A program made the position numbers and the translations under genes. A stretch of DNA of 38,372 bases from Terramyces sp. JEL0728 (lineage: Eukaryota; Chytridiomycota; Chytridiomycetes; Rhizophydiales; Terramycetaceae), in NCBI GenBank assembly GCA_027603945.1, contig JADIIU010000117.1, forward strand, positions 1 to 38,372. Reading direction: 5' to 3'. Position 1 is the stretch's first letter. Each line of letters begins with the position of its first letter. A model generated the notes under the pieces. It did no database searches, was not told the DNA's origin, and was given only the letters and a program-made list of their open reading frames with translations. This document shows, one piece after another, positions 766 to 34,550 of the stretch.

Positions 766-1648
766 ATGGTCTTCAACTACAAACCTACACAAGATTTGAC
801 AGGAAAAGTCGCAATTGTAACAGGAGGCTCATCCGGAATAGGCAAAGTAACTTGTTTCGAACTCGCTCGATTAAACTGCACAGTGGTTATTGCTGCAAGA
901 AACCAAGAAAAAACACTTCCAATTATCGAACAAATCAAGAAAGATACTGGAAATGATAAAGTCGAGTTTTTGCATTTGGAGTTGGATGATCTCAAGACTA
1001 TCCCACTAGCGGTGAAGGAATTCTTGTCCAAACATGACAAGCTCGATTTGTTGATCAATAACGCCGGTATCGCAAACGCAGGTGGGATGACAAAAGACGG
1101 ATTTGAAATTACATTTGGAACTAACCATCTCGGTCCGTACTTGTTTACCGAATTATTGAAATCCACCATCGAAAAAACTCCAGATGCTCGTATTATCATC
1201 GTCTCTTCCAAAGCCCACTACAGAGGGAAAAGATATGACTGGAGTATAATTAAGGAGCCAAATACGAAAACGGTAACTATCGATTCGTACAACGACTCCA
1301 AATTAGCCAATGTCATGTACGCAAGGAAACTTGCAAAGGAGTTGAAGAATACATTAGTGTTCTCGTTACATCCTGGTGTGGTCGCTACAGATGTTTGGAG
1401 AAATTTACCATGGATTCTCCAGCCAATAATCAAGTTTTTCATGCTTTCTGAGGAACAAGGTTTGTAAAATTAACCTAGGTGCCATGACCACACTGTATTG
1501 TGCGTTAGAAGCCAGAAAGGAAGACAATGGGTTGTACTTTGATGACTGTAAAGTCCTAAAGCACTTGGAATTAGCAGATGACGAAGAAGCAATCGAAGAC
1601 CTGTGCTCCAAATCAAGAGAGTTTGCTCAAGAACACTTGCAGAATTGA
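766..1648 (+). CDS. Short-chain dehydrogenase/reductase (two exons, 19-nt intron)
   Basis: Exons 766-1459 and 1479-1648 give 287 aa. The full SDR motif set is present: TGGSSGIGK for NAD(P) binding near residues 20-28, NNAGIANAGG, IIVSSKAH with the catalytic serine, and YNDSK (YxxxK). The 19-nt intron 1460-1478 (gtttgtaaaattaacctag) restores the C-terminal region that matches the upstream paralog, which is uninterrupted there; without splicing the ORF stops inside the intron. ATG 766 begins MVFNYKPTQDLTGK, a normal SDR N-terminus. Probably an NAD(P)-dependent alcohol/aldehyde or retinol-type dehydrogenase; substrate unknown. Tandem duplicate of the preceding gene. Confidence 0.92.
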
Positions 1649-2150
1649 TTGCAATAAATTTCAGCCTTTTTGATAAAGTCGTGCCCCCAATTTGTTGGAC
1701 AAATTAACCCTAACCCTGGAACCCAGAAAAGAAAAAAAAACGCAAATTCTGGCTATCATATGATAATAAAATTAGAAATGATTACCATTGAATTATGGGA
1801 AAGTGAAAAATATATCAACAACAAAACCTTACGCGCTTGCTCTCTAACCATAACTTTTCTTTTTATCTTCAGCTGAAAAAAGTAGGAATTTCATTGTAGT
1901 TTTAAAAGTGGATGAAATGACCGAAACGGCTAATTTTGTTGTAACTAAACTGAACAGACAACGGATCAAATATTTCAGCTCAGAGTAGACGTCGATATGC
2001 CAAACTGAGAATCTGGATTTCATTCCTTATAAGGATTATTTTCCATCAGCCAGAAATAAACAACCTAACGCTGAGGCTATATCGCATTTTGATGAGGAAA
2101 CAAAAAAAACATTTTTTGCAATTAAATTGAGGTTGCGGACCTAAATAACA
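1649..2150. other. Intergenic region upstream of the C2H2 gene
   Basis: No convincing gene in about 500 bases. The open stretch around 1670-1876 has no ATG start and no family resemblance. The region is A/T-rich with poly-A tracts near 1731 and 2101. It holds two tandem TAACCC units near 1707-1718, a CArG-box palindrome at 2025-2034, and presumably the promoter of the gene starting at 2151. Confidence 0.5.
2025..2034. promoter_or_regulatory. CArG box (MADS-box factor site) candidate
   Basis: CCTTATAAGG is a perfect CC(A/T)6GG element inside a 12-bp perfect palindrome (2024-2035), 117 bases before the ATG at 2151. MADS-box factors of the SRF/Mcm1/Rlm1 type bind such sites in eukaryotes. Its use here is inference from the match and position only. 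Confidence 0.35.
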
Positions 2151-2846
2151 ATGAAACACAACTTCAACGACCACAACCAGACACTCGTTATGCAGCAAGA
2201 TGAACTCAGCTACCACCACAACTCAAGCTTCCTGCACAATCACGAACAGTTTGTCTCCCAATCGGTAACTATCGATTTCACTCGGCCACAAATACAATTA
2301 ATAGAAGCAGAAAGTATTGATTTCTTGTTTAGAGAATACATTCGAGAGGATGCTCACATGTTCCAATATGCACCGGAAATCAATTCGCTACCAGAAAACA
2401 GTTTAAAGGGTCATGATATATCCCCTTTGCTGCTTACAGAGTCTACTGTATACCCTATGGAGAAGCAACCGGCACCTCATCCTGTCCCAGCTGGTTTCCA
2501 ATATAAAAACTCTCAGCCGAACTTTGACTACCAAAACTGCGCAGGAAATTTGGTAACCGTAGTCAACGATCGATGCTCAAGTGATTGTGCTTGCGGAAGC
2601 AGCTTATCAGACAATAGTGCTGGTTCACCAAGGTCGACAAAAACAAGAAATACAAAAAACCGAGTCCAGAAACGCAAGGTGGTTGATATTGCAAAAAACA
2701 AATTCTCTCTATTATTTAGACAATCCGAAAAGGTAGATTTGCAAGTTTTTGTGATGACCAAATGCCCATTCTGTCCAAAGTTGTTTAAAGCTGTCAGAGG
2801 CTTCAAATCTCACATTACTAAACATCATCCCCGTGATTTTCAATAA
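2151..2846 (+). CDS. Single C2H2 zinc finger protein
   Basis: 231 aa, one exon, ATG at 2151 and TAA at 2844-2846. The N-terminal two thirds is low-complexity and probably disordered (Asn/His/Gln-rich, then Ser-rich), followed by a basic Lys/Arg stretch around residues 160-180 that could serve as a nuclear localisation signal. One C2H2 finger sits at the extreme C-terminus (CPFCPKLF ... HITKHH, near residues 202-225). This is the layout of a sequence-specific DNA-binding protein, though one finger alone usually needs flanking contacts. Target genes unknown. It converges on the methyltransferase gene with 75 bases between stop codons. Confidence 0.75.
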   Translation: MKHNFNDHNQTLVMQQDELSYHHNSSFLHNHEQFVSQSVTIDFTRPQIQLIEAESIDFLFREYIREDAHMFQYAPEINSLPENSLKGHDISPLLLTESTVYPMEKQPAPHPVPAGFQYKNSQPNFDYQNCAGNLVTVVNDRCSSDCACGSSLSDNSAGSPRSTKTRNTKNRVQKRKVVDIAKNKFSLLFRQSEKVDLQVFVMTKCPFCPKLFKAVRGFKSHITKHHPRDFQ

Positions 2847-2921
2847 ACTCATTCTGATATTTGCTTAACCCCTATTCAAAGTTCTTGGATTTATGGAAAA
2901 AACAAAAAAAGCTGTTTTTAA

Positions 2922-4323: not shown

Positions 4324-7300
4324 TTATCTGCCTGTAGAGAATTTTGTAGGGTGCAGATCTAGGCCGCGGATGTCTGGTGAGAATTTGATGGCATTTCTTG
4401 AGCGCATAATAGCCAATCTTATGCAAGAATAAATGAAGATGACTATTCCGAATCCTAATGCAATCAACCATACAAATGGTGTCATTCGATCGTCTGTTTG
4501 GAATGCAGTGTTGAATGGTGGAACGTAGACAATAATAAACACAATTGCTGCTCCGATCAATATGCCATAGAAATTCCGAACATTTGAAAACATGAATGGG
4601 CCCACTGGATATTTGAACTTTGCCTTGACACAGAAGAGGTTAAAGCATTGCTGAATCATTAGAGACATGTAGTATGCAGAGTTGCCCAACGCAATTGCAG
4701 CGATTTGATCAGCATCAGAAAATTGTTTTCCTGTGGTAGAGTTGAGAGTGTAGCCAGCTGAACCAAAATTAGGGTCAGTGACATCCTTGAGCGACATTCC
4801 ATAATGATACCACATTACAAAGAAATAGCAAACCAAACACCCTATTGCTTCAATAGTGCCAATTTCAAGATATGCCCATGATAAAACCCCAGAATCAACC
4901 AAAGTTTCTTCTTCAATTGGATCCGTCAAATTTCGTATTATTCGTCTCATAAACGATGGCGCGCCATTCTTTTCGTCGTCCTTCATTCTTGCAGTTAATT
5001 TTTCAGTGACTGGCTTTCTTGGTTGCAGTTTCATCAAACTTCCCTTATCTTCGGGCAAATCCCAGGCGAATGATAGTGCAAGGAACATCTCAAACCCTAA
5101 ATCGGTAACCATAATCAAAATAGCATTCAGTGGTAGTGGGATTGGAACTGCAACATTCAACAAATTGGCATATACTAAAGTTATAGCCTAGTTACCTTCA
5201 GGCATAGTGTGGGAGATTGTATACTTGATGGATTTCTTCAGGTTCAAAAAGATTAGTCTTCCTTCTTCGATGCCGTTAACACACGATGCAAAGTTGTCAT
5301 CAATCAGAATCATCGCAGCAGCTTCTTTGGATACATCAGATCCAGACAAGTTCATTGCTATTCCTAAATCAGCCTTCTTTAATGCAGGAGAGTCGTTTAC
5401 ACCATCACCCGTTACACCAACAATATGTCCAATAGATTGAGCATGCTTAACAATAGTCAGTTTGTGTTTTGGAGAAGTACGTGCAAAAATAATTTCTTCT
5501 TTGGAAAAGATATTTTCCCAATCTGCATCAGTCAATCCGTCAATCTTTTCTCCGTGAATGACAATAGCGTGTGCGTCTGATTCTGGGACATCCTCAGGTC
5601 TGCATCCTCTCTTTCTTGCTAACGAATCTCTAGTATCTTGCAACATCAAGTTAATCTTTCTTCCAATAGATTCAGCAGTGAGTGGATGGTCACCGGTAAC
5701 CATCATAACTTTGATACCAGCTTCTCTGCAGTGACCAATGGCTTCTCTGACACCGTGCTTTGGAGGATCTTCCAATGAAACCAAACCATAAAAAGTCAAG
5801 TTGTCCTGAAGTTAAAGAGTAAATACCTTTGGATAGTTTGCAGGGTCCTTTTTGAATTCAAAATCTTCAGGGTATTGGTCACCTGGAAGTGCCAAACAAG
5901 CAAATGCAAGCACACGGTGGCCTTTAGAAGCCATAAAGTTGTATGTTTCATCAAAATTCTTTGTGTGTTCAGGAGTCAAAGGAATGGCTTTGGTGCCGTC
6001 GTGGAAAGTAGAGCACAGTTTCAAAACACGTTCTGGAGCACCCTTCAAGTAAACCATCAATTTTCCGTTGCTGTGTTCCTTTTTGTGAATAGTCATTGCC
6101 CACTTGTTGTCGGAATTGAATGGAATCTCAAATACTTTAGGGAATTTGTCGTGAATACCGTCAAAGTTATCCAATTTTTGAGCAGCATTTCGAAGTAAAC
6201 CAGCTTCGGTTGCATCGCCAAGGACTGGACGGGTTGGGATTGGGCCCTCGTTGTTTTCAAATCTCGCACGAGAACATAAAGCAGACATGTGCACAATTTC
6301 GTTAACTCCAGCATGATTCATATCCAGCGCAACTGCACCAGAGTCGTCACCACTTTGAAGTTGAGCAAAGAATAATCTGTCTCCAGACCAAATATAAGTA
6401 ACAGTCATCTGGTTTCTGGTTAAAGTACCGGTTTTGTCAGTTGCCAACAATGTGATAGCACCAAGAGTTTCCACACCTTGCAAATCCTTTACAAGCACAT
6501 TTCTAGTCGCCATCTTTTTGGCAGCCAACGAGAGCAAAATAGTAACCGTAGCAGGTAGCCCTTCCGGAACGAAACTGACAAAAGTACCAATGGCAAAGTT
6601 GAACGCATAAGCCCATGAGTTACCTCTGGCAAATTTGGCAACGAAAAAGAACGTAACAGACACTACTGCTGCCACTGCTGCAATAGTGTAGACAAAGAAT
6701 TCGATTTCCTGGTTCATTGGAGAAACTCGGCGTTCTTCACTTGAAGTCAAGAAAGCGATTTGTCCAATAACAGTGTTGTCACCAGTTCTAATAACAATTC
6801 CGTAACATTCCCCGTTGACACATAAGGTGCCATTAAACATCAAATTATGCGCTTCCAGGGGATTTTGCTGTTCGTTTCTTACTCCACGCTCTTGGGCTTC
6901 AGCTTCTCCTGTCAGCGATGCGTTATCCACTTTGACTTCAGTAGAGGCAAAAATAACCAAATCTGCAGGAATCTTGTCCCCAGAACGAACATAAACAATA
7001 TCACCTTTGACCAACTCAATGGCTGGGATATTAACTGTTTTTCCATCTCTAATTACATTACACTTGGCAGGAATTAAATTCTAGATCAGGAAAATGTACC
7101 ATAAAGGATTCAAGGATAGCCTGGGATTTTTGAGTTTGGTAAAATTCAATTCCAGCGTTAGCAAAGGCGACGAATAAACAGATAGCACCGATATAAATCT
7201 AGATTAGGCTGGATGTACGTTAATCGTGTTTCCTTCTGGTTGAACAGCGTAAACAACGTAGGCAACAATACCACTCAACCACAACATCACGTTGAAAACA

Positions 7301-7555
7301 TGGAGGAGGTACATGATAAACTGAATAAGCGGATGCACTTTTTTCGGCGGACTGAGCTGGTTGAATCCATCAGTCTCTAACCGCTTTTTGGCTTCTTCGG
7401 TCGACAATCCTTCAGACGCGACCGCTTTTGCAGGGTTAAACTTTACATTGTACAATTGCGAAATTTCTTCGAGCGTTTTCAAGTGTTCCGCCTATATTAA
7501 ATGATGTTACTATATCGACTTTCTTATCGTCCTCCTTTTTTTCTGGGGGAGCCAT
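4324..7555 (-). CDS. Type IIC (Na+/K+-ATPase alpha-like) P-type cation ATPase
   Basis: Six exons (7555-7511, 7491-7219, 7198-7100, 7080-5827, 5805-5196, 5174-4324) give 1043 aa, the usual length of an alpha subunit; introns are 19, 20, 19, 21 and 21 nt. Seen in order: N-terminal domain (SQLYNVKF ... LSTEEAKKRL), M1-M2, A-domain, M4 PEGL, the phosphorylation site DKTGTLT (Asp about 354), KGAPERVL, TGDHPLTAESIG, TGDGVNDSPALKKAD, then M5-M10. PEGL and the overall order match Na+/K+- and H+/K+-ATPases and the related fungal pumps. Oddities: the A-domain loop reads TGEA where TGES is usual; M5 reads YTISHTMPE and M6 TDLGFEM, so some positions that bind K+/Na+ in animal pumps differ (the M6 Asp-808 equivalent is Glu). 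Transported ions are uncertain; a plasma-membrane Na+ or H+ pump is likely. Confidence 0.95.
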
Positions 7556-7746: not shown

Positions 7747-8950
7747 ATGGTTTCTGTAGTGTCGATTCAAGAGAGCAATAATCAAATACAAGATTTAAGA
7801 CCGAATCAATCAGCTAATGTATACCATCCGCCGCTAGTTTTCCCGCTGGAATTACCTTCTCCCCCAGAGGAACCGTTGGGATTGTTAAAACCACAATCAG
7901 AAGCACCGACCCCAATATCAAAAGGTATATTCTACTAACAAAGGGGTTGATTTAATCAGCTGGCATCCATTTAAAACCACTCTAGCGGTCTCCCATTCAA
8001 ATTCCATCTTTTTATACTCGCTCACAAACAAGAGTACATTTTGCTAATGTAGAATGGTTTCCAGGTGCAAGTGGATTGACACATCAATTTCAGTACCACA
8101 TAAGTTGCATGAAATTCAGCCCATTCAGCTCAGTCACCCTCGCAGTTGGTTGTGAAAAAGGAGTTTTACTGTGGAAAGTGTACACTGAGAAATCTAAAGA
8201 TCAAATTGTACCTCTAATTGAAGGAGAGTCTAGCGCGTGGATGGAATTACTTGCAATCGATGGATTAGAAGGAGTGTCTAGTGTTGAATGGAGTTTATGC
8301 TCGCGATATCTGTTTGTGGGATATAAGAACAGCGTTAGCCTAGTAGTATGGGACACTGTTATGCTTACGCCGCATATTCTCAAAAGAGGCACCGGCGGAG
8401 GTACCAATCACTTGCTGTCAATCAATGATGGCATGTACCTTATACAAACATGCGGAAACCAATTGGCAATTTGGGAAACAGAAACGTGGAACTATAAATT
8501 GATGTCTACTAATAGCAAAATAACAAATATCATATGGATCAACGGATCAAAGAATATTCTATTTACAATCGAAGGCAGCTTTAAAATCTACTGTTTGCAG
8601 ATTAAAAACAACCTTGAAACGCTATCGGCACCAGATATAGAACTGCCACAATTAGATTTACCCAGAATTGATACTCACTTATCAATTGAAATCAAGTCCA
8701 TTAAGCTTGATCCTAAAAACAAACGTTTAGCGGTTTCATTTATCAACGGTAAAGTAGGATTATTCGGGTTCCGAATGAATCCCTTGCCTGACCTTGAACC
8801 AATGTAAGTATTTTTAACTGTAGTGGATGGATTAAAGGATTTGACGGTGATGTTAGTATTGACTTTGCTGGGATTTTTGATCATGGATCTTTGCTTGCCG
8901 CCAGGTGGAATAAGGAAGTTGTTAGTTTTCTTCCGTCGTACTTTAAATAA
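7747..8950 (+). CDS. AAAS: Aladin-like WD-repeat nucleoporin
   Basis: Exons 7747-7924, 7944-8033, 8053-8803 and 8824-8950 (introns 19, 19, 20 nt) give 381 aa. WD-type repeats run from about residue 60 (ISWHP, then SCMKFSPF, VEWSLCSRYLF, VVWDT). The most telling stretch is GGGTNHLLSINDGMYLIQT followed by AIWETETWNY, which lines up with the central blade of ALADIN, as does the C-terminal GSLLAARWNKEVVSFLPSYF. ALADIN anchors at the nuclear pore through NDC1 and has spindle roles in animals. It is shorter than the human protein (546 aa), lacking most of the N- and C-terminal extensions. Many yeasts lack the gene. Confidence 0.82.
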
Positions 8951-10622: not shown

Positions 10623-12758
10623 TCAGTTCAAGTCGAGGTTTAGAAGGAGTGCATCGCAGAATTTAAAGTAAACTTTGCTTTTCCCATAAATCTTTTTGAA
10701 TCTAATCGCATGCATGTTGCCCAGCCATACCTTTACAACCTCTGCCTGCAACTCAGCCCCATCAACCGTAATAGCAAACGTATAGTACTCTGGAACACGC
10801 TCAAAAGCCAGCGCTTTGTACTCTTCCTTCAACTGGATTATCGTCTTGTGCAGCTCTTGGAATATCGTTGCTGGTGGCAAAATAGAGCCTGCAAGCGAAA
10901 ACTTGACTGTACGCATTTTAGTAGCGGGTTTATGGGTTTCATGCCATTTTTCTACTTCTTGCAGGTCTACACTAATGCTTTCGTGTGGCATCAGCGATGA
11001 CATTCTGTCTGCTATTGAAGCTTCTCTCGAAATTATTTTCTTTGATACATCCATTGATATTTCTCTTTCTACTACTGATGCAGCTCTTCTATTTACCGAT
11101 TTAGTTTCTTTGAACTTTATTTGTGGATTACTTGTTTGTCTGTTATACTTTGCCCGAATTGGCGTTTCCTTGAGCCTTGACATCTTTTCTTGGTTTAATG
11201 ATTGTTCTATTGAAGCTGGTTTAGCTTGCATTTGTTCAGCTTCTTTATGTTCATTAGATTCTGCCAAAACCAGAGTTTTTCGGTTACTGCTTGTACTGGA
11301 AGACATTCTGGTTTCTGATGGTGAATTTGCAAGCATAGGGCTTTTCGAATTCTTGCTGCCCAAAGACGACGACCTTGTGATTGAACCTGCATTTACACTG
11401 GGAGGCTGAACGATAGTACGAAGGCTATCATTTTTTGAAATTTTCGCATAGCCGCCATCAGTTGAATCTCCTTCTCTAGTTGACTGTATGCTTATACTCT
11501 TCCTTCTCTTTAACGACACGATATCTTGTGTAGAGGTCCTTTGCTGTGTTTTTTCAAAGTGCTCCTTGTCCTTCTTCAGTTGCAGCTCGTTGTGCTGTCT
11601 AATATGATAAACCGTGCAGTTTGTGTCGAATGTAACCGAGGATATCACTGTTGCCAAAGAGTTTCTATCTACAGCTGCTGGTTCATACTTTACTGGTTTG
11701 TTTACACATTCATAGTTTACCCAGCCGTCATTTCTAATGCCTTCGATATCTATCCGGTCTCGTTCCTTTACGAATATTAATTGCAGCAATACACACAGTT
11801 CTGGTTGTTATAAACACAAACCTTTAGAGAATTCTGGAGGCACGCTGTACTGAATCCTTCTAACCACTCTTTCCAATTCACGTATACTTTCAGCGAGGAA
11901 TGGGGGATGGCCAGCTACCATATAATACACGATTACACCCATAGCCCAGATATCTATTTTCTTTCCGTTGTACTTTTGACCACTCATCAATTCAGGAGCT
12001 GAATAATACGGAGTGCCGCAAATAGTCTACGTTAATGGATCTTACATCCAACTTGTCGCCTGTAACAAAAGTGCCGAGTCCGAAATCCGAAATAAGAATA
12101 TTCCCATCTTCGTTTAACAATATGTTTTCCAGTTTTAAATCTCTATGTACAACTCCGGAAGCATGAGTGAAATCTATTGCAGATACTATTTGCCGGAACA
12201 GTTTGCGAGCATAGTCTTCTGCTAAATGTTTTTGTTTCTTTACAAGATCCGCCAATTCACCACCAGCACAATATTCCCTGTGTTAGTCTAGAATTACATT
12301 ATAATGTAGATATCTTCGGCACCGTCTATCACTTTGAATGTTTTTATGATATTTGGATGATTGAGCCGCATTAAGAGCAATACTTCCTTTTGAAAATCAG
12401 ATAGGTAGTCGTCCGGTTCTTCATTATGTTCGACTATTTGGTTTTCTGCTTCTTGTTTTACTTTTTGAATAAACTCGTCCAGGTTTTCTTGAACATCCAC
12501 TTGGCTACTTTTGATTGTCTCCATGGCCTGACGATATATCCGCTTCTTTTCTTGCAGCACTCGTATCTTTTCACGATCTTTCCTTATCCTCTCTTCATTC
12601 TCTTTGCTGGCTTTCAAGAACTTTTTGTTGAGTATCTTTATCGCAACCTCGTTAGTAATAGTTACTTTTTCACCGGACGGTAGATGCTGTCCTGCTTTTA
12701 CTTTGCTAAATGCCCCTTCGCCAATTGTATTCCCGATCTTGTAGTTTGCTAGTTTCAT
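10623..12758 (-). CDS. AMPK/MARK-related Ser/Thr kinase with KA1 domain and N-lobe coiled-coil insertion
   Basis: Exons 12758-12298, 12277-12046, 12026-11822 and 11800-10623 (introns 20, 19, 21 nt) give 691 aa. Kinase domain about residues 5-330: IGEGAFSKV glycine loop, VAIK (Lys41), HRDLKLEN, SDFGLG, TICGTPYYSAPEL, DIWAMGVIVYYMVAGHPPF. Then a long Ser/Lys-rich linker and a C-terminal KA1-type domain (EVVKVWLGNMHAIRFKKIYG) as in MARK/PAR-1/Kin1, which binds acidic lipids. Unusual: 83 residues lie between Lys41 and the alpha-C Glu (Glu125), against about 17 normally; the extra roughly 65 residues are highly charged and coiled-coil-like. The ATG at 12758 (MKLANYKIGNTIGEG) is preferred; in-frame codons upstream hold no ATG, but an upstream exon is possible. 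Confidence 0.85.
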
Positions 12759-13026: not shown

Positions 13027-13834
13027 TTAATTTTCCAATAGATAGGCAATGGCTCTTTGAATATCGTTTCTGCTGAACCGGAGTGCTTCAATAATCCTTG
13101 GACGCGAAAACCCCATACTCTCCAACATTACTATGTCCTCCTCTGAATGCGCTAGAACAGGCTCAGTTGTGCTTTCGGTAGGCAGCGTGTTTTGAGACCT
13201 ACTTGGTGGATCAACTTGCAACAAAGGCAAGATATACTGTTTACACACTTTTACTACACTATTGCTGATTCTCCATTTCCTTATTGACGTGTACTTTACA
13301 ATCATTCCAGTCAGTAATCCACACGCAGCTGCTACTGCTGATTTACTACCAGACACAAGACAAAACTACATTAATAAAACTTACTTGGAGAATAATGAAA
13401 TACAAGAATGATCTGTCACTAAAAGTCAATCCAAGTATCTGTATGTGGTATGAAGCAGGTATTTGATTCATGTAGAATATTAGACAGCTGAATATGAATC
13501 CGAATGGACCGCAGCTGCTCTTTATTCCATTGTAAAACAAGATTCCCTGCAATGTGGTTGTAATAATGGTGGAGTAAACTAGAAGCGAAGTGAATTTTAC
13601 ACTTCCCCAATGTCGCTCCAGTATTCTAATATTGTATAGTATGAGATTCCCTAGAAATAAGTGTGTGGTAGATTGATAAGTAATTGGAAATAGAAACAGT
13701 TTAACTATGTTGAAATGCTTGGGAGTAGTTGTTGTACCCAGCAAGACAGTCGTTAAAGTTGTGATTCCGGTCAAGATTGTAAGTGCTTTTGTGGTTGGAG
13801 TGTTGGAGAATCCACTTGGCCCATTTGAAAGCAT
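13027..13834 (-). CDS. UBAC2: UBAC2-like ER membrane protein (rhomboid-like domain plus UBA)
   Basis: Exons 13834-13385 and 13365-13027 with a 19-nt intron (gtaagttttattaatgtag) give 262 aa. The start MLSNGPSGFSNTPTTKAL and the segment NLILYNIRILERHWGSVKF match the opening and first loop of the UBAC2/Dsc2-type rhomboid-like pseudoprotease. Several hydrophobic segments follow. The C-terminus is a UBA domain (IVMLESMGFSRPRIIEAL ... IQRAIAYLLEN) that would bind ubiquitin. Relatives sit in the ER membrane in ERAD or in the fungal Dsc ligase complex. No Ser/His protease pair is evident. The ORF continues upstream of 13834 without an ATG. Confidence 0.85.
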
Positions 13835-16615: not shown

Positions 16616-17430
16616 TCATGATCTAAATAGCACAAATAAGACTCCTGTTGCGAGACTAGACAATAGATTCACCTACAATCAACTGTTACTTACCATTTCA
16701 TTGCTAAAGAGCGGATACCCGGATATCAGTACTCCTCCTTTCTTTACTATTTTCCCTTCCTTGGCATCGTAATAAGTCGCCTGTACAGTCGCGCCAACCA
16801 AACTATCAATTAAACTGCCTGCAAAGCCCCCAATTGAGCCCAGTAATATACATTCCAATATTGTGAATTTGTATACCGCAAAGAAATTCTGTACTGCAAA
16901 ATACGAGATTCCAATCAAGAATCCTCCCAATAAACTTGCTACTAGCCCGCCGAAACTAACTCCGCCGTTTGTCCCGGGAGGAACTACTCGTCCGCTTGTT
17001 ATTAATCTTGGCGTGGACGATAATACAGACCCCAGTTCACTTGCCCAAGTGTCTCCGCAACAACACGCTAACACTCCTATACAAAAGAGTCCGCATTCGT
17101 ATTTGTATCCGTAAAAGAAAGATATAAACGAAACAACAACAATCCACAGTGAATTGCACAGCACTTGAATGTGATCCCTCTTTGCTTCAAATGCCTCCTG
17201 CTTCAATTTCAACTGCTTGTTGTAATGCGTAAGTTTGGACGACGATAAATAAAACACAATCAGCATAATTCCAAATGACGGTTCAAGTGCAAAAATACTA
17301 AACCCCACACTAAAAGCTGCAATCGCACCAGAAACAGTTAAACTAAATCAGCCCAGATATACTTTTTCCTTAATCCATGTACAGCCAATACAGTCGCCAA
17401 TAAAAATGCAACCGCAATCTGGAGTAACAT
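16616..17430 (-). CDS. TMEM19: TMEM19/DUF92 family membrane protein
   Basis: Exons 17430-17363, 17342-16694 and 16672-16616 (introns 20 and 21 nt) give 257 aa. DUF92 hallmarks: VFYLSSSKLTHY, CCGDTWASELGSV, PRLITSGRVVPPGTNGGVS, GSIGGFAGSLIDSLVGATVQ, and after the last intron VNLLSSLATGVLF. At least five membrane spans are visible. The plant relative VTE6 is a phytyl-phosphate kinase, and the Gly/Asp-rich loops suggest a polyprenyl-phosphate or CTP-using activity; the fungal role is unknown. Its ATG is only 25 bases from the ATG of the divergent PMT gene. Confidence 0.85.
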
Positions 17431-22108: not shown

Positions 22109-23802
22109 ATGTCTACTGAACAAGCCGTGACACCAGTCTCCGTATTAATCAAGAACAACCCAACAATTCATGATTCTTCAGTAACGCTTCGCCACTCTGT
22201 AGTGCAGATTAGCGTTGATAGCCATCCTTCTCCTACCCTAGAATTCACTCCCGAACAAAAAACAAAATTGATGAATTCATTAATGACAATGGATTTCGAA
22301 AATGTGGATATTTTACTTTCCAGTACCGACCAAATAGAACATTGCTCTAGTTTTTCTGATCATGAATCAATAGTTACTGAATTATATGCGAGAATCCTGA
22401 ACAGCCTTATAAACGCGTACAACGAGTCGGATCATATCGCCAGACATCACCTTAGAACTATTATTTATGGCTGCTTTATGTTTGCAGTCAATCGTGGTAT
22501 TGTATTTTTACCTCATCACCACACTGATGTAGTAAAATTTATGGCAACAGTCTCGGAAGAGAAATCTCTTGCGATTTTGAAAGCTTATCCTGAAAATACT
22601 TGGTCTCAGCAATGCCACGCTATTGCCTATCATTTAGAATGGAAAATGGGTATACAAGTACTAATTTAGCTTCCTTGGAAACTTTTGATGCCGAAAGAGC
22701 AATTAACGCGGCTTTGAAAGAAATCCCAGAATCAGATGCTGCCATCGAACAAGCAGTAGGAAGTACTGAAAAACCTCCAGCATTAAATAGAAGAAAGAGC
22801 CTGCTGGATGTAATAGAAAACGAAGATCGGTCGCAGATGCAACGAAAAATTAGAGAAAAACACTGGTTGACTTTAAGAATCAAGTTTGAATTCGCATGGC
22901 AAGAGCTTATTGAAGTACCTGCCGGCGGCTATTCACGAGGCCCAGAATTAAACTATACTTTGCAAAGGAAAGCAGTCTCGTTAATCAAATCAATCGTGGT
23001 TCTCGCAAATCATTTCCAACAGTACGAATATGCCTGGTACTGGCCTGAAAGGGCAAGATTGGTATTTGACTGGTCATTGTTGTACAACTTGATCAAGACT
23101 TGCCGGATTGCAAATAAGGAAGAGCCTAGTCCAGTCTGGGTAGCAAGAGGATGGGTATTGTACAAACAAGTGCTTGAAAATATGAAGCAAAGCCTTAAAG
23201 GAATGAAAAAATACGTTTCCTTCATGGAAGAGGTAGAGCATCACTAAATAGTTTTTACTGTTTGTTAGAGAAACCGAAAGCGATGATGAGGCACTTGTCA
23301 CCTTTGTTCGATTGTACCATGACATGCTTTCAAATTGCTCTCCCCACCATTTCCCGATTTCTGACTCAATCTTGGCCCATTTGATTGAATTGTGTTGGAG
23401 CTGCAGAGGTGAAAGCAAGGACAAATGGGAAGAAGCTTTCCGCATGGTACCCTTTGCTAACGATAGATCATTGAGATATATCAGTTGTATCAAACCTACA
23501 AACATCGCCCTCACAGTGTGTTCAGAGACGAAGAATACTTTACCCCCGAGACTTTTGTTCTCCTTTTGAAATTCTGCACGCACACAGGGAACATTGAAGA
23601 GTTTAACATGCTCAATCACGACGTGCTATCCAAAAACCCCGACGTCGACTTTGTAAACAAAGTGAAGATTGGATATGCGACTTTTGTCAATGATAAATTG
23701 AACCGAAACTCAAAAACTTCTCAAGCAGCGTTGCGACCTCAACCAAAGCTTGACTTGGAAGCAATTAATCGTTTGAGAAATACTCTAATCCAATATTTTT
23801 AA
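22109..23802 (+). CDS. Unrecognised alpha-helical protein (four exons)
   Basis: Exons 22109-22649, 22670-23232, 23252-23446 and 23467-23802 (introns 20, 19, 20 nt) give 544 aa. The introns have strong signals (gtatacaagtactaatttag, gtagagcatcactaaatag, gtaccctttgctaacgatag) and join smoothly, for example RMIIEIYQLYQTYKHRPHSV. The sequence looks helical throughout, with amphipathic pairs such as LIKSIVVLANHFQQYEYAWY and FVLLLKFCTHTGNIEEFNML that recall TPR/PPR-like solenoids, and a charged loop near residues 225-260. No conserved motif lets me name it. Its stop is 67 bases before the PAK gene in the same direction. Confidence 0.75.
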
Positions 23803-23869: not shown

Positions 23870-26087
23870 ATGAATCCAATACCACCAGCAAAGCCTAAAC
23901 GGACAATTAAGGACAAACCTCCCACTGTTCCACCACGACCTGCTGAAGACAGACCACAACCACCCCCTCCCCCTCCGCGACCCGAAATATCCAAAACTCC
24001 ACCACATTCGAGGAATAATTCAGTGGAAATAGAAAATTCACAAACGAACCAAATTCAGAGGAAACTGCCAAACTATCAGGAGAGTCAAGGAAATATAGAA
24101 TATATTCAGCATAAACCGATAACAACACGTGTACCAGTTAAACCTCCTAGACCAGAAGCAAATGAACAACCGTCATCTCCAAGTTTAACCAGGAAAAACA
24201 CATTTCCATCGACAAAACCAGCGTCGCCTGTCATAACAAGGAAAAATTCCAAGCCAGAGATGCCTTCTCCTTTAAAATCACCTATAACCAAAAGCAGCAC
24301 AAAATTAGAATCTTTGCAGTATGATTCGAGAGATGAATTACTAAAGAGTTACTCGCGAGAAGATTTGAATATTGACAGAGTCATACCCGAAAGTAAAAAT
24401 GGGCAAAAGCTGCCTCCTCCATTACGAATGGGAAGGCCGAAACCTAAAAAGTCGGCAATTGGCAACTTTGTTGATTCCGTGCATGGTATTTAGATATTTA
24501 TAGCTAGGAGCATTTGCAGAGGAAAATGAACACCAACGGCCAGTTATTTCCGTACCATTTAATCCAATTCATATTACACACGTTGGATACGATGCTGAGA
24601 ATGGAGAATTTACTGTAGATATCAATTAATGTAGGGATTACCGGAAACTTGGAAGCGGATGATTTCCGATTCTGGCATTTCAAAGCAAGACCAAGCAAAG
24701 AACCCCCAAGCTGTATTAGACGTTATTGGATATATGACCGAGACATCCAAAGTTAACAAAGAAGAGCGAGCCTTTTCAAAATTCAGCAATTTTGAAGACT
24801 TTCAGGAAACACCGACTTTGCCAGAATCAAAGAAGATGGACCTCACCAGTCCTCAGCTACCTCCCAAGCCTCCAAAGAAACCCGCGAAGCTAAAGGCTGA
24901 GGTTGAATCTCCTCCAAAGTCTCCACCACCAACTTTACCAAGACCGCCTCCAAAACCTGTCAAATCAGTTGAAGCTGGCAGTGCAAAGAGTACTAGTCCA
25001 CCTACTCCCCCAGAATTGCCCGGTAGACCAGAGATGGGTAAGTTGAATTTCATTGTAGCTTTGGATAAACCTGTTATACCGCCAAAACCATCTTCAAAGC
25101 CTCCAGAAATAAGACCAAGAATAAAACCTATTCAAGAAGATGTTGTAGAAAGGATGAAGAAGCTTTGCAGCCCGCTCGATCCATACACTGTATATACGAA
25201 TTTCCTTTTGATTGGGCAGGGGTAAATCCTACTAATCATAGTGCTTCTGGCAAAGTATATTCCGCAAAGAGTGATTCTGTGGGGTCGGTAGCTATTAAAC
25301 AAATGAATCTCAATGCCCAGCCAAAAAAAGAGGCGATCATAAATGAGATTTTAGTAATGCGCTCGAATCGCCACAAGAATATCATCAATTTCATAGACTG
25401 CTACTTTTACAAGGAAGATTTGTGGGTTGTTATGGAATATATGGAGGGTGGTACTCTGACCGATACTCTGGTGACCAATTATATGACCGAACCCCAGATA
25501 GCTGTGGTTTGTAGAGAGGTGATTAAAACGTAATTTAGGTTTTGGAAGGACTTCTTCACTTGCATTCCAGTCACGTAATTCACCGAGATATCAAATCGGA
25601 CAATATTTTATTAGGGGTAGACGGGCAAGTTAAATTAAGTAAGTGTTTAGTAACGATAGTCGATTTTGGATTCTGTGCGCAGCTGGGAGATGGACAGACT
25701 AGTAGAAACACAATGGTAGGAACTTCCTATTGGATGGCACCAGAAGTAGTCACAAGAAGAAATTATGGACCAAAGATCGACATTTGGTCTTTGGGAATAA
25801 TGGCGATAGAAATGCTAGAGGGCGAGCCGCCTTATATGCATGAAAGTGCTATGAGAGCGCTTTACTTGATTGCGACAACAGGAACTCCAAAGTTGAGGGA
25901 GCCTGATCAAGTGTCGGGCACATTCAAAGATTTCTTGGCCAACTGCCTGGAAGTGGACGTGGGCAGAAGATATTCCACCGAACAGGCATTGAACGATCCA
26001 TTCATAACAAGTGCCAAGCCCACTAAATCCCTTATACAATTAATACATGCAACACTACAAGTGAAAAAGAAAGAAAAAGAAGCATAA
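23870..26087 (+). CDS. p21-activated (STE20/PAK) kinase A with proline-rich N-terminus
   Basis: Exons 23870-24485, 24508-24614, 24635-25221, 25242-25518, 25539-25638 and 25660-26087 (introns 22, 20, 20, 20, 21 nt) give 704 aa. The N-terminal 200 residues are proline- and Ser-rich with SH3-ligand-like runs ([14 protein letters not shown]). The CRIB domain is at about 219-242 ([20 protein letters not shown]), then [15 protein letters not shown], a second proline-rich linker, and the kinase domain from about 430: [46 protein letters not shown]. Binding of Cdc42/Rac GTP to CRIB should relieve autoinhibition; the usual roles are polarity, actin and MAPK signalling. Tandem with kinase B at 26430. 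Confidence 0.94.
25639..25659 (+). other. 21-nt in-frame intron just before the DFG motif of PAK A
   Basis: The GT-AG segment has donor gtaagt, contains taacgatag at its 3' end, and is 21 nt with no in-frame stop. Splicing gives KLIDFGF; retention would insert seven residues (SKCLVTI replacing I) immediately before DFG. The paralog has a 22-nt intron at the same place that cannot be read through without a frameshift, which supports this being an intron. Confidence 0.85.
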
Positions 26088-26429: not shown

Positions 26430-28259
26430 ATGACAGAAAAGTCGATCCAGCCCCAGCAATCTCTACATGAGAAGAAGCTTTCAGTTATCAGCCAGAAACA
26501 AAAGAAGAGTATTATCAATACACTGGTATCTGGCGTGCATGGTAATCATTTTTTAAAACTAGGCATGTTTGTCGCTGAAGAACAGCCAATACCAAAAGTC
26601 AACAGGGCCGCTATATCAACACCTTATAATCCAGTTCACGTCACGCACGTCGGATACGACGAAAACGCAGGGGAGTTTACAGTACAACATCATTAATCAA
26701 AGGGATTGCCAGATCACTGGACAAAAATGATCAACGATTCAGGGATATCAAAGCAAGATCAAGCAAAGAACCCGCAAGCGGTAATAGATGTAATTGGGTT
26801 TATGACAGAAAATAATACAGCCAGTGACGAAGAAAAGGCGTTTGCCAAATTCACCACCACAGTAGAAAAAACAGCCCCCTCAGCAATATCTGTTGGAGGA
26901 CAAGAACTGGAAAAGGATAATCCCTCTTCAACGCTACCTAAACTTCCTAAAGATCAGGTTGTGGAGAAAGATGTAGAGATTGTCAAAATACCGCCAAAAC
27001 CTTCCGAAAACAGACCCTCTATTAACACCACATCTCTTGGTACAACATCTGCAGCAGTCATATCACCCAATGTGAAGAGTCCCCCACCAAACAAACCGAA
27101 ACTACCAGTTGTCCCCGCAAGACCAGCCCATACCTTAGGAATAGCATCTACAGATGTCAAACCAATAACTGTTTCCAAGCCTTCTACCCCAGCAACTCGT
27201 GTATCGCCAGTGAAGCAAGAACCAGATGCTCCGCAAGCCCCAAAACCACCTCCAAAACCTGTAATCAAAGACATGCCTTTGAATACCGATGTTACAACGC
27301 AAGTGAAAAGAAGACCAAGAGTTGGGGGAGAGTCTACCGAAGATGTTATGGTGAGACTCAAAAAGCTATGCAGCCCTCAGGATCCAAAACGACTATACAC
27401 AAATCTAAAGAAAATAGGTCAGGGGTAAGCTTTATTAATCATAGAGCATCTGGAGGGGTATTCATTGCAAAGCAAGTTGAGACTGGAAATTCAGTGGCAA
27501 TTAAACAAATGAACCTGAACGAGCAGCCGAAGAAAGAATTGATTATAAATGAAATTTTAGTAATGAATTCTGCCAAAAACAAGAACATTGTAAATTTCAT
27601 TGATAGTTTCTTGGTACAAGGAGATTTGTGGGTTATTATGGAATACATGGAAGGAGGGTCGCTCACTGATACTCTACAGATAAATTATATGACAGAAGAA
27701 CAAATTGCAATTGTATGTAGAGAAGTTTTAGAAGGATTAGCCCACTTGCACTCCAAAGGAGTAATTCACAGAGACATAAAATCAGATAATATACTTTTAG
27801 GGATGGATGGTCAAATTAAAATCAGTAACAAATTACTAACGTCTAGCCGATTTCGGTTTTTGCGCTACTATTGGTGATGGACAAGCAAAACGCAACACTA
27901 TGGTTGGAACACCTTATTGGATGGCCCCAGAAGTCGTGACTAGGAAAGAATACGGACCAAAAATAGACGTGTGGTCGTTAGGAATAATGGCAATTGAAAT
28001 GCTAGAAGGCGAGCCTCCCTATTTAAACGAAAATCCCATTCGTGCATTATACCTCATAGCTACAAACGGAACTCCTTCGCTACAAGACCCAGATAGTGCA
28101 AGTGAGACGTTTAAAGATTTCTTATTGTGTGCTCTCAAAGTACTGGTTTCCGAAAGATACACTACCGAAGAACTACTACTGCATCCTTTTATCTTGGATT
28201 CTAAACCAATCGAAAACCTAATTCAGTTAATACAGTCAACAAAATCTGCAAAAAAATAA
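26430..28259 (+). CDS. p21-activated (STE20/PAK) kinase B
   Basis: Exons 26430-26541, 26563-26681, 26703-27424, 27445-27824 and 27847-28259 (introns 21, 21, 20, 22 nt) give 581 aa. A short N-terminus is followed by CRIB at about 55-78 ([20 protein letters not shown]), the same [15 protein letters not shown] block as kinase A, a Pro/Ser/Thr-rich linker, and a kinase domain from about 310: [45 protein letters not shown]. Four introns are at the same positions as in kinase A; kinase A's additional intron in the CRE/VLEG codons (25519-25538) is absent here. The stop is 15 bases from the convergent SDR stop. Tandem duplicate of kinase A, without its long proline-rich start. Confidence 0.94.
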
Positions 28260-29301: not shown

Positions 29302-30241
29302 TTATACTACAATCCATACGAGACTGTCGTCTTCAACACCTTGATCTTTCAGGCTATCAGCAGCGCTGAACGCGCAAAAGAAGCGGTCGTTACCTTCCAA
29401 CCCCAAAGTCCCCAGTTGAATTGTTTGCCCTCTGTTCAAACCCAATTGACGAATCACAGATTTATCATTAAAAATGTGCCGCTTAAGCATATCCGATGAT
29501 AATTCGGTTGTAGGTATGGTAAGAGCAGCTTCCAAAGTGTCTGCGCTATCCTTTTGGAAAATCTTTAGGTATATTCTGATTCTCTTTCCTAATAGCTGGT
29601 TTAGTAAAAAATACTTTATCGAGAGGATCGTTGTGGTTCGTGGAGTAATCTCGAACAGTCATATTAGGATCGAGCGCTTCCTTGTAGATTGCTTCTAACT
29701 GCGCGTCGCCATAGAGCGGAGTGTGTCCCTCCGCATCCAACTCTTCAAATACTTCTTCAAAACTCTCATTCACTGTCATTAAATATATCTACTGATATTC
29801 TCCATCGCATCCTGCATATTCTTTTCATACTTGTATTTCTTGTCGCGTTTAGAAACCGTTTCAAAGGTCTCTCTCTTGTTAGCAAACCGCAATCCTTTAA
29901 TAGACTCGATAGTTGCCTGGTTAATCATGTGGTTAGAGAATCGAATTTGCGCTTGGGTTTGAATGTAAATTGACCGTTCAAAATTCTTGTCCGAGATATT
30001 TCTAAAGCATTGCAGCTGCTTGGCAATCATTTGGGCTTTTGGCAAGTCCCCAGTTTTCAGCTGATGTCTCAAATTTTGCATCTATGTTAAATTGTAGTAC
30101 CAGCTGCTTTTCTTTTCGTTCAAGCTCTGTCCTGTCTCTCTTGAGCTCTCTTACGCAACGCTCAGAGTCTCTACGAGAGACTTTTAATCGTCCTTCTCGA
30201 TCTTTCATTGCCAGAGAGTGAAATTGCTGCAGCAAGGACAT
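29302..30241 (-). CDS. ESCRT-III (VPS2/CHMP2-like) protein with C-terminal ubiquitin-like extension
   Basis: Exons 30241-30101, 30081-29793, 29772-29615 and 29595-29302 (introns 19, 20, 19 nt) give 293 aa. Residues 1-150 have the ESCRT-III core: a basic helix (VRELKRDRTELERKEKQL), then LKTGDLPKAQMIAKQL and an acidic C-terminal helix (MNESFEEVFEELDAEG), closest in pattern to CHMP2/Vps2. The last exon adds about 97 residues (RIRIYLKIFQKDSADTLEAA ... IQLGTLGLEGNDRFF ... DSLVWIVV) whose beta-rich pattern with a hydrophobic end looks like a ubiquitin-like/RA beta-grasp fold. I know no ESCRT-III protein with such a tail. It should act on endosomal or other membranes in scission. Confidence 0.78.
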
Positions 30242-30526: not shown

Positions 30527-30531
30527 ATATA

Positions 30532-31008: not shown

Positions 31009-32605
31009 ATGGGAAAGTTAAACTGCTTGGAATGTAGCAGAAAGAAACAAAAGTGCAATAGACAGCGGCCACAATGCCATGGATGTCAAATATCGAATGT
31101 GCCTTGCAAATATGCCCAAAATACAGTCCCACCAACTGCAACAAAGTGCACAACAGAAGCAGAGAAAGTCTTTCTGGACCAGCAAACAGAACAATTGGAT
31201 GCTTCAAATCATTATGATTGGGCTATGCTTTCTGAAGATCCCTCCATGAAGCCAAGTCCCGATATATTGAATTTATACTTGGATGCTTTAATTGACGCAG
31301 GAGGAGAAGCTGCAGAAGCACATGTGTTGGAAATGACGACAAAACTATCGCTGGTGTCTCCGACCGCACTAGTTTTGGCAAAAGAAACTTCGATAATGCT
31401 GAAATATTGTATTAGAGGAATTGGATTTGATTTCCTGGGGAACCCAGAGGTAGCGAAACTGTGTTTGGAGAAAGCCTTGCACTATCTCCATGACACACTA
31501 GGTGATCCTTCGGTTACAAATGTCCGAGCAATGTTAGCTCTGGCACTGTTTCATAAGAGTAACGATTATCTAATAAGGAATGAAAAGGTTGGATGAAGGA
31601 TTAGCGTACTATTCGATCGCAGTGAAAATGGCAAAAGATATTGGGATAAACCGAGAGGAATCCCTGGATAGACTGACAACAAGCGAATTTGAAAAGGAGG
31701 AATGTAGAAAGCTGTGGTGGTGGATTTACAGGATCGACCAGTACTTGCGATTCAAAAACAAGTCAGTTTTGAATGATGGAGATAACGGTGTGTTCTTGCC
31801 AGGTAGCAATCGTGCCAAAGGTCAGGATCAAACACCTTACTTGGGGATGTCTATTTTGGCATCGAGCGAGTGGTTCACCCCACCATTGGAAGATCAGAGC
31901 ATTCATAGTTGCAAAATATTGCTTACAAGGATATTGGGAAAAGCCATAGAATTCAACCACCTATACCATAGCAAAGGCAGCAAAATCAATGCAAATTATA
32001 TACGCCAAACATTAGAAGGATCACTGCAGCTATGGTGGGAGAACTTGCCTCCCTCATTCTATGACCATTTAAAACTTTTGCACAGTGGAGCAAAGATTTC
32101 ACAAAGCGAGAGCTGGCAGGTGTTTGAAATATACCTACATTACAATTACGTCAGGGCAGAAGTCTTATTGCCGACGCTATTCACAGAACTACAGGCATTG
32201 CAAACTGGATCTACCCCAAAAACAGTTGTGAAGCTATCAAATATTGCAAAGGAAAGTGCTATGATGTTGAAATTAATGCTGCAATCAAACGCCGCATATT
32301 TATACAAGTCTCCTATATTTGTAGTAAGTTTTAGTTGATCATAGATACCGATTTTCCACCTCGCAATACCAATTTACTGCGCTACATTAGCAGATATACC
32401 ACAAGATCTTAAACTAGAACTAGAGAATGCGCTTGCATTGCATATCAACTGTATTAGAGAATATCTTGGGAAATCTACGATTAAACCGTTGATGTTGGAT
32501 ACATTTGATTACTTGATAGCACTGACTGATGTCAAAACACTGGTCCAGGATTTCACCAAGCTCAAGATATTAAACAATGATCCTTGCGCTATTCAAAGTA
32601 ATTAG
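31009..32605 (+). CDS. Zn2Cys6 fungal transcription factor 1
   Basis: Exons 31009-31558, 31578-32323 and 32345-32605 (introns 19 and 21 nt) give 518 aa. The N-terminal zinc cluster has the exact C-x2-C-x6-C-x6-C-x2-C-x6-C spacing (CLECSRKKQKC, then CHGCQISNVPC). The middle carries the fungal-specific regulatory domain, best seen in CRKLWWWIYRIDQYLRFKNK, plus repeated helices through to IPIYCATL and LDTFDYLIAL. Such proteins bind CGG-containing sites as dimers. There is little coiled-coil linker after the cluster. Paralog of the next gene, with both introns at matching sites. Target pathway unknown. Confidence 0.92.
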
Positions 32606-32779
32606 GATTATCCAGTTGAAGGCAGTTCTCATATGGAATAATTCCCATAGCCTGGTATTGGCTGTAATAAACTAGCGCAGACCATCCATTTTCAATTCAA
32701 TAGTGCATTCTTTGAACCAACATCTAAATCAAACGGCCGATATGTAAATCACCCGAGTCCGAGATATCTTTGCAAATTC

Positions 32780-34550
32780 ATGGTTAGACCAAACAACACT
32801 TGTTTAGGATGCGCAAGAAAGAAACAAAAGTGTACCAGAGAAAGACCTACATGTCAAGGATGCATAATTTCAAAAGTAGAATGTATATATCAAGAAATCT
32901 CTAGTGTATTGAAGAAAAAGAAAGTAATGACTGCTAGGGAAAAGGCTCTAGAAGATAGGCTGAACCAGTTGGAAGCAGCATTCATGGCTGCAAACCCAAA
33001 TACGTCTTGGTTGCTACCTTTTGATTTCCAAGTCAAGGAGCCAAAAATGGATACACTGAATTTGGATGACGCTTATTCTTTTGACGCGGAAGGGGAACTT
33101 GCCGAGACGGAAGTACTGGAGTTGTTTACATTCATGTCAGCTGTTGTTTGGGTGAGGTCAAAAGAGAATTCAAAAATGCTAAAGTATGCGCTTCGAGGTC
33201 TTGGGTTTGAGCTCCAAGGTAAGCAGCATTTAGCTCCAAAATGTGCAGAGAAAGCAATTCAACATTTCTCAGACGCCATTGCAAACCCAAGTGTAACTAG
33301 TGTAAGGGCCATCTTGATTTCCGCTCTTTTGCATTTACGTAATAGTAGTTTTATTTAGGACTGCATCGTTTGAAAGAAGGGTTTGCTTATTATTCATGCG
33401 CGGTTATTATGGCCAAAGATGTTGGAATCAACAGAGAAGAATCCTTGTCGCTCATCTACAGTGACGAATTTGAAAAGGAAGAGTGTAGAAAATTATGGTG
33501 GTGGATTTATAGTATTGATCAGTTTTTAAGATACAAGAACAAATCAGTCTTGGCAGACGACGATAATGGAGTATTTTTGCCTGGGAATTACAATACCGCT
33601 CTTCAAGATAAAACCCCGTATCTGGGAATTTCAATTATGGCATCAAAGGATTGGTTTACCCCTCCTTTAGCAGATCAAAATCTCCACAGTGCTAGAATCA
33701 CACTGGCCAGAATATTTGGAAAGGTTTTGCATTTTAACCACCTTTATCACAACCAAGGCAGCAAAATCAACGTTATTTATATACTTTCGACACTATCCGG
33801 ATCAATTCAGTTGTGGTGGAACAGTCTTCCAAGCAGTTTCCTTGAAAAACTAGATTGCCTGTATGCTGGGGCAAAAATCGAGAACACAGAAACTTGGCAG
33901 GTATTTGAAATATGCACACAGTACAACTACATTAGAGCCGAGGTGCTATTGCCGGTGCTATTCAATTACATACTAGAAAACAAACCTGCATCTGCAACTG
34001 CAAGGCCGTTACAAGAACTAGCCAAAGTAGCCAAGGAAAGCGCGGTTTTATTGAATTTGGTAATTGGATCATCTCCTTCGTTCATGTTTTTGAACCCAAT
34101 GTTAGCGGTAAGTTGCACTTGAATTAGGTATTCATTTTCCATCTTACAATCCCGATATACTGCGCTACACTGATAGATTTACCATTGGGTTTAAAATCAG
34201 ACTTGTCGCAAGCACTAGATGTACATGTAAAGTGTGTCCAACATTTCTTGAAAATCTCCAAAGCCAAACCATTGATTTTAGATACCTTTGATTATCTTAT
34301 ATCACTGACAAATGTTAAAAAGTTGATTATTGATTTCACCAGATTTAAAATATTGGATCAAGATCCGATGGCTTTTGTTGCCAAGGAACAGGCCAGCCAG
34401 CATCAACCTCTTTTTCCTAGCCAGATTGAGTTGGTTCAGTCACCATGGAATTGCAAGTCTGAACCAGGTACTCCTATCACAGATTTGGAACAAATGCTTG
34501 CTCCAGCCCTTGCCGAATCGGAAATGGACTTGCAACTACCTCCACGTTAA
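32780..34550 (+). CDS. Zn2Cys6 fungal transcription factor 2
   Basis: Exons 32780-33338, 33359-34107 and 34128-34550 (introns 20 and 20 nt) give 576 aa. The zinc cluster is CLGCARKKQKC then CQGCIISKVEC, followed by a basic stretch (LKKKKVMTAREKALEDRLNQ) that looks like the linker and start of a dimerisation coiled coil. The regulatory domain matches its neighbour (CRKLWWWIYSIDQFLRYKNK, GVFLPGNYN, IPIYCATLIDLP). It has an extra C-terminal tail of about 50 residues rich in Gln, Pro and acidic residues (EMDLQLPPR at the end) that factor 1 lacks and that could be an activation domain. Tandem duplicate 174 bases downstream of factor 1. Confidence 0.92.

Follow-up and report, generated by a model that had tools for sequence, protein, structure and literature searches.

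Ultrashort introns have been described as the genome norm in heterotrich ciliates (15–16 nucleotides (nt)), mikrocytids (16–17 nt) and chlorarachniophyte nucleomorphs (18–23 nt) (PMC10245619, PMC4494063, PMC9505925). The closest fungal comparison is Cryptococcus neoformans, which is rich in short introns and has a small population of <40 nt, but in which the average is 56 nt; the paper concerned calls introns of <60 nt ultra-short and ranks the species highest among its fungi (PMC11913375). Likewise, a survey of 644 fungal genomes gives C. neoformans, with a mean of 63 bp, as a relatively short-intron example (PMC8476143). Here we analyse the introns of a 38,372-nt stretch of DNA, contig C117 (JADIIU010000117.1; hereafter the window) of a 15.0-Mb assembly in 231 contigs. 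An earlier reading of the letters of this stretch (the original prediction) had proposed spliceosomal introns of about 20 nt as the norm of the genome. We rebuilt 45 GT-AG introns in 14 genes of the window, 44 of them 19–22 nt long. Judged from the sequence, they are very probably ordinary U2-type GT-AG spliceosomal introns, shrunk to near-minimal length genome-wide in a fungus-like organism. In open papers (closed journals and preprints lay outside the search) we found no fungus with an intron norm of ∼20 nt, in agreement with the original prediction, which had also named Stentor and the chlorarachniophyte nucleomorphs as bearers of such tiny introns; for these the cited papers give 15–16 and 18–23 nt.

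Gene models were made with a purpose-built gene finder that joins a three-periodic coding model to explicit intron lengths, and missing exons were added by eye. The finder replaced a plain scan for GT...AG segments joining open frames, in which the contrast with control dinucleotides was weak. A segment was accepted as an intron only if it started with GT, ended with AG and left the frame open; the GT...AG ends of 45/45 window introns are thus a selection criterion and not independent evidence. The lengths comprise 14 introns of 19 nt, 19 of 20 nt, nine of 21 nt, two of 22 nt and one of 27 nt. Unaided, the finder recovered 37 of the 45; the other eight were proposed by eye and kept only with an open frame, two of them (25639–25659 and 31559–31577) having been prompted by a paralog. 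The original prediction had counted 46 introns in the 14 genes (45 at 19–22 nt and one at 27 nt). We could assign exact coordinates and open frames to 45 (44 plus the 27-nt intron), whilst a 46th was not identified. An 11-nt segment in the gene at 16679–17430 belonged to a trial combination that was dropped, and it stands outside the 45.

Removal of these segments from the genes is supported, independently of RNA, by intron positions in paralogs, a presence/absence pair, indels between contigs, protein alignments and mended family scores. From these we infer that the RNA is spliced at the listed segments, and in what manner. Three paralog pairs were compared: PAK1 and PAK2 (60% identical), two Zn2Cys6 regulators (53%) and two Na/K-ATPase-like proteins (80%). 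PAK2, regulator 2 and the second ATPase have 10 introns between them, each of which matches an intron of the partner gene in aligned residue and phase; the partners have 12 introns, of which 10 are so matched. The paired introns nevertheless differ in length in 8 of 10 cases, and their letters match in 11–15 of 20–22 columns. For eight of the ten pairs the finder made its calls with no knowledge of the paralog; the exceptions are the two paralog-prompted introns given above. Of the two unmatched introns, one lies in PAK1, where PAK2 reads through, and the other in a part of the ATPase outside the model of its paralog (locus L027).

The window also holds a tandem SDR pair in which the copy at 1–701 reads ...GAAGAACAAGGAGCC... 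at the spot of a 19-nt intron in the copy at 766–1648. This exact presence/absence is a gain or loss after duplication. Two near-identical loci, L023 and L024, differ by 1 nt inside each of two GT-AG segments (21 versus 20 nt each); their alignment has five indels, of which three fall in stretches annotated as intergenic and the other two where the finder reads exon in L023 but intron in L024. In a second near-identical pair, L030/L031, there is one indel, labelled intergenic. These near-identical stretches lie on separate contigs (L023/L024 on C199/C111 and L030/L031 on C30/C33), and may reflect recent duplication or the local presence of two haplotypes in the assembly.

At the protein level, spliced products were aligned to PDB chains named Na/K-ATPase alpha-1, importin subunit alpha and protein mannosyltransferase 1. 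The junctions were gap-free in 5/5 cases for the ATPase, 5/5 for importin-alpha and 6/6 of those tested for PMT, with a single-residue gap one position away from one of them. With the 45 open frames, these alignments agree with the earlier statement that removal keeps the frames and, for these three genes, restores conserved proteins. Family scores changed in the same direction: the U2AF_lg score rose from 252 bits unspliced (cut-off 310) to 334 bits after removal of four introns, and an SF1-HH match in two pieces (66 + 43 bits) became a single match of 115 bits once spliced.

The length distribution was examined in a sample of ∼0.29 Mb (291,868 bases) of the 15 Mb. In a flat-prior test, GT/AG was the only splice signal and all lengths from 10 to 400 nt were equally likely a priori. 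With a coding model trained on GT-AG gene calls, 59 of the 123 GT-AG calls were 19–22 nt long, compared with 2–7 of 96–108 for eight control end pairs; beyond the window (20 loci, 200 kb, being bases 20001–30000 of contigs C1–C20), the same model gave 44 of 82 versus 2–4 of 60–73. Where each end pair was instead trained from scratch, GT-AG gave 65/115 at 19–22 nt at the last step, and 63/112 at the step where the controls stopped, versus 1–5 of 72–83 for seven control pairs. No other length class exceeded the controls under the flat prior and, above 60 nt, the control end pairs yielded more calls than GT-AG did. A length of ∼20 nt is therefore the norm in the sampled 0.29 Mb, as had been claimed, with a peak at 19–22 nt that is absent from the control end pairs. 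A further model, with learned signals and lengths, called 264 introns (∼1.2 per kb of coding sequence), of which 253 were 19–22 nt, a share to be read with the short-intron training of that model in mind.

The introns share a compact layout, typically a GTA donor, 2–4 spare nt, a YTRAY branch site with its A at nt 14–16, usually 2–3 nt more, and AG. Among the 253 model calls, the commonest donor hexamers are GTAATT (49) and GTAAGT (18), and position +5 is T in 113 but G in only 55. YTRAY occurs in 33 of the 45 window introns (shuffles of those introns: mean 7.5, maximum 17). It also occurs in 45 of the 59 flat-prior calls, which were made without a splice-signal model (shuffles: mean 9.6, maximum 19), and so was not imposed by the model. 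In 32 of the 33 YTRAY window introns the branch A is nt 14 or 15, the exception being the 27-nt intron, and in 31 it lies 5–6 nt before the last base; of the 253 model calls, 241 have their best branch A at nt 14–16 and 219 have it 5–6 nt before the last base. The distance from the 5′ splice site to the branch site is thus ∼14 nt, the gap between donor hexamer and branch heptamer is 2–4 nt in 190 of the 194 model calls with YTRAY, and the space between branch site and AG is too small for a pyrimidine tract. Almost all YTRAY heptamers (196/200) permit at least four of six pairs with the GUAGUA of U2, but three of the six follow from the motif itself, so that the count adds little; it was also made on a table with one 3-kb locus counted twice (L042 inside L013), a duplicate that the main anatomy figures exclude.

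To judge from its sequence, the genome carries U2-type machinery, comprising U2, Prp8, SF1, U2AF65, Cwc25 and Isy1. The U2 small nuclear RNA scores 140 bits, carries GUAGUA and has GUGUAGUAUCU kept. Prp8 is full length (2,329 aa), with residues 6–2311 matching PDB Prp8 chains, and its gene itself holds six introns of 19–22 nt; the displayed part of the alignment runs across 2/6 of their junctions. SF1 has both helix-hairpin and KH domains, and U2AF65 exceeds the curated Pfam cut-off once spliced. Cwc25 starts MGGGDLNLKKSWHP (MGGG), and its alignment to the CWC25 homolog chain (5yzg) begins at residue 1. An Isy1 gene is present, but none of eight otherwise well-matching Isy1 chains aligns with residues 1–31 of the model, and the N-terminal exons of the gene are ambiguous, with 12 possible structures.

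At the 5′ end of Isy1 (L034/L033) there are three successive intron-like units (20, 20 and 21 nt) spaced by 1 and 3 nt. We do not claim micro-exons of 1 and 3 nt there: one of the 12 open-frame solutions has plain 22- and 21-nt introns, and tandem intron-like pairs are scarcely commoner than in reversed sequence (7 versus 4).

How this intron set compares with those described elsewhere differs from system to system. The chlorarachniophyte nucleomorphs are similar in having several GT-AG introns per gene within a narrow range of 18–23 nt, but are relict algal nuclei of 0.37–0.61 Mb with ∼290–340 different proteins (PMC4494063), whereas the present genome is of 15 Mb and encodes SF1, U2AF65, Cwc25 and Isy1. 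The same paper reads two nucleomorph introns of 40–41 nt as fusions of two units (PMC4494063). At L019:3842–3884 (+), two intron-like units (22 + 21 nt) abut with no exon between them and could be one fused intron of 43 nt, comparable with those fusions. Mikrocytos mackini also has introns of near-fixed tiny length and conserved sequence, but it is a reduced rhizarian parasite with 224 introns of 16–17 nt and 17–19 spliceosomal proteins identified (PMC10245619), in contrast to the 19–22 nt and ∼1.2 introns per kb of coding sequence found here. In Stentor coeruleus, tiny GT-AG introns are again the norm, with a branch A that lies 5 nt from the end, frequent GUAAUU donors and a conserved U2 branch-recognition site, yet the introns are of 15–16 nt with the branch A at nt 10 or 11 (PMC9505925) rather than nt 14–16. 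Stentor Cwc25 is also described as lacking the glycine plug, and the Isy1 N-terminus as not conserved (PMC9505925). The glycine start of Cwc25 that is predicted to be intact here is a direct test of the idea published for Stentor, and a Stentor-type loss of the plug was not found.

The features expected of U2-type introns are present, as far as sequence can tell: a GT-AG length peak against controls, a branch site that fits U2, conserved positions with diverged length and sequence, and the machinery itself. The label ‘spliceosomal’ given to these introns by the original prediction therefore agrees with the flat control end pairs, the YTRAY branch site, the paralog-conserved positions and the U2-type machinery. 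A number of observations weigh against this reading, or against parts of it. The length prior and signals behind the 253/264 share came from short-intron training. In the flat-prior test, 49 of the 123 GT-AG calls were >40 nt; 24 of these start or finish with a short intron-like unit (18–23 nt), which suggests merged short introns, and 25 do not, amongst which there may be a few genuine longer introns. YTRAY is lacking in 12 of the 45 window introns. U6 was not found in the assembly by four kinds of search, though U2 was found at once, and U1 was not found in one search, to which control genomes were equally silent. Finally, 43-nt human introns are spliced in cells, so that the in vitro limit of ∼50 nt considered below is not absolute (PMC11913375), and the hand-over from U1 to U6 that we propose is a speculative step.

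The U6 searches gave candidates that we did not accept. Two Rfam hits (27 bits, cut-off 44) were taken as false, lying inside a stretch that reads as an intron-bearing protein-coding gene. The U6 consensus as DNA and a gapped pattern revealed no U6 in the assembly. A 19-base pattern with up to three mismatches gave six matches (control 3); scans of four of these six loci revealed no U6. U6 may be interrupted, diverged or unassembled. We draw no inference from the missing U1 and U6, since the control genomes gave no U1 hit either and parts of the genome may be absent from the assembly.

That the frame breaks are sequencing or assembly errors has a negligible probability in our view. No supporting point was found, whilst paralog-conserved positions despite diverged intron letters, consistent ends and branch motif, and the flat control end pairs all contradict it. 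It is also extremely improbable that the segments are eliminated from DNA (as internal eliminated sequences) or bypassed by ribosomal frameshifting. They are indeed short, and their removal restores frames, as either process would require, but 45/45 start with GT and end with AG, mostly with a branch motif at fixed spacing, and the genome encodes a spliceosome whose Prp8 gene itself holds such segments. A different kind of doubt concerns the organism: the introns might be real but belong to a non-fungal genome, or to a lineage whose introns are already described in literature outside our search. Prp8 does score higher with the hPrp8 chain (4,573 bits) than with spp42 (4,067) or chains named Pre-mRNA-splicing factor 8 (3,385). 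Fungal affinity rests on a regulator with Zn_clus and Fungal_trans domains in the window plus the best matches of PMT (the chain mannosyltransferase 1, 6p25) and importin-alpha, and our search of open papers turned up no such case; we consider this alternative unlikely.

Of the readings that accept real introns, two differ over the spliceosome. The original prediction had suggested that it may be modified and had named U1, U2, U6, SF1, U2AF and Prp8 for inspection; of these, U2, SF1, U2AF65 and Prp8 were found and look conventional, whilst U1 and U6 were not detected. In a specialised spliceosome, U6 would pick the 5′ splice site without stable attachment of U1, and changes in the branching factors would leave space for a lariat loop of 14 nt, along the lines conjectured for Stentor. 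This would accommodate the 2–4 nt between donor and branch motifs, set against the ∼50 nt needed in HeLa extract, where a branch site 46 nt from the 5′ splice site is too close for splicing (PMC6692369). It would also suit the scarcity of G at +5 and the prevalence of GTAATT, the top Stentor intron being GUAAUUUUUAUAUAG (PMC9505925), as well as the unaligned first 31 residues of Isy1 and the missing U1. However, the MGGG start of Cwc25, absent in Stentor, is intact, Prp8, U2, SF1 and U2AF65 are normal in appearance, the U1 search was silent in control genomes too, and the Isy1 model has 12 alternatives. The suggestion of modification is not shown by these parts, the Isy1 N-terminus being the only part that fails to align, and a specialised spliceosome seems to us doubtful.

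We tentatively put forward the other possibility, that an otherwise conventional fungal spliceosome works on an intron set that lies wholly at the mechanical lower limit, with footprints 2–4 nt apart. The usual U1/U2 cross-intron complex would then be impossible, calling for early transfer to U6 or no lasting U1 binding. Were this so, loss of the Cwc25 plug would not be required for 14-nt lariat loops, because the plug is intact here.

For the U2-type introns that we favour, most likely the whole intron is recognised as a unit (intron definition). SF1, and then U2, would read the branch site, with the AG following at a nearly fixed distance, for which reason a pyrimidine tract would not be needed. 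U2AF65 may act through protein contacts instead of the tract, or be replaced; on a subset of human short introns, SPF45 does replace U2AF65 (PMC8363638).

At the other end of the intron, U1 pairs at approximately −3 to +6 of the 5′ splice site. The U1 and U2 pairings would sit 2–4 nt apart, which seems sterically hard. We therefore propose as the likeliest step a hand-over, in which U1 probably departs, or gives way to U6, by the time U2 and the tri-snRNP (small nuclear ribonucleoprotein) lock on. The narrow range of lengths could reflect deletion pressure that meets a hard minimum in the space needed for donor, branch and AG, as proposed for mikrocytids (PMC10245619).

The individual introns of the window are given here gene by gene, with the strand after each gene; calls are those of the finder unless marked ‘by eye’, i.e. 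proposed by eye with an open frame. The SDR gene at 766–1648 (+) has a single intron, 1460–1478 (19 nt), which is the one lacking in the tandem copy. The Na/K-ATPase-like gene at 4324–7555 (−) has five introns, all supported by alignment as well: 7492–7510 (19 nt) lies in the region beyond the paralog model, whilst 7199–7218 (20 nt), 7081–7099 (19 nt), 5806–5826 (21 nt) and 5175–5195 (21 nt) have paralog counterparts of 21, 21, 21 and 20 nt, respectively, identical in position and phase. This animal-type alpha-like pump is present in two copies, the second being at C61:71322–74534. In the Aladin-like gene at 7747–8950 (+), a label that falls below the Pfam cut-off (143 versus 171 bits), the introns are 7925–7943 and 8034–8052 (both 19 nt, by eye) and 8804–8823 (20 nt). 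A protein kinase gene at 10623–12758 (−) contains 12278–12297 (20 nt), 12027–12045 (19 nt) and 11801–11821 (21 nt); the UBA-domain protein at 13027–13834 (−) contains 13366–13384 (19 nt), and the DUF92 membrane protein at 16679–17430 (−) contains 17343–17362 (20 nt, by eye).

The PMT gene at 17456–19779 (+) has an intron at 17546–17564 (19 nt) called by the finder. The six that follow are supported by the alignment also: 17760–17779 (20 nt), 18118–18136 (19 nt, with the one-residue gap one residue off), 18767–18785 (19 nt), 18989–19008 (20 nt), 19225–19244 (20 nt) and 19517–19536 (20 nt). All five introns of the importin-alpha gene at 19870–21595 (−) have both finder and alignment support; 21350–21376 (27 nt) is the sole window intron beyond 19–22 nt, and the others are 21224–21243 (20 nt), 21114–21134 (21 nt), 20961–20981 (21 nt) and 20585–20604 (20 nt). 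Two genes have no Pfam match. That at 22109–23802 (+) has introns at 22650–22669 (20 nt), 23233–23251 (19 nt, by eye) and 23447–23466 (20 nt, by eye), and that at 29302–30241 (−) at 30082–30100 (19 nt, by eye), 29773–29792 (20 nt) and 29596–29614 (19 nt).

In PAK1, at 23870–26087 (+), the introns are 24486–24507 (22 nt; 21 nt in the paralog), 24615–24634 (20 nt; 21 nt), 25222–25241 (20 nt; 20 nt), 25519–25538 (20 nt; PAK2 uninterrupted there) and 25639–25659 (21 nt, by eye), the last prompted by a PAK2 intron of 22 nt. This last intron, missed by the finder, has a length divisible by three and no in-frame stop and, if retained, would add seven residues directly before the DFG motif. PAK2, at 26430–28259 (+), has 26542–26562 (21 nt), 26682–26702 (21 nt), 27425–27444 (20 nt) and 27825–27846 (22 nt). 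Zn2Cys6 regulator 1, encoded at 31009–32605 (+), has 31559–31577 (19 nt, by eye with the 20-nt paralog intron in view) and 32324–32344 (21 nt; 20 nt in the paralog), and regulator 2, at 32780–34550 (+), has 33339–33358 and 34108–34127 (both 20 nt). Towards the end of the window lie two very similar tandem genes without introns, 34675–36687, with a sulfatase domain, and 37236–38372, truncated by the contig end.

Introns of this extreme size have so far been known from a few unrelated protists, namely giant ciliates, relict algal nuclei and reduced parasites, and the present set provides a new test of the minimum spliceable intron. A fungal case that has SF1, U2AF65 and the Cwc25 plug intact is closer to genetic models; exchanges of factors or introns with yeast could therefore probe the size limit, the passage from U1 to U6 and whether U2AF is needed where a pyrimidine tract does not fit. 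In such a genome, most multi-exon genes would be broken up by gene finders with an assumed minimum intron length of some tens of nt, and other cases may therefore hide in annotated fungal genomes.

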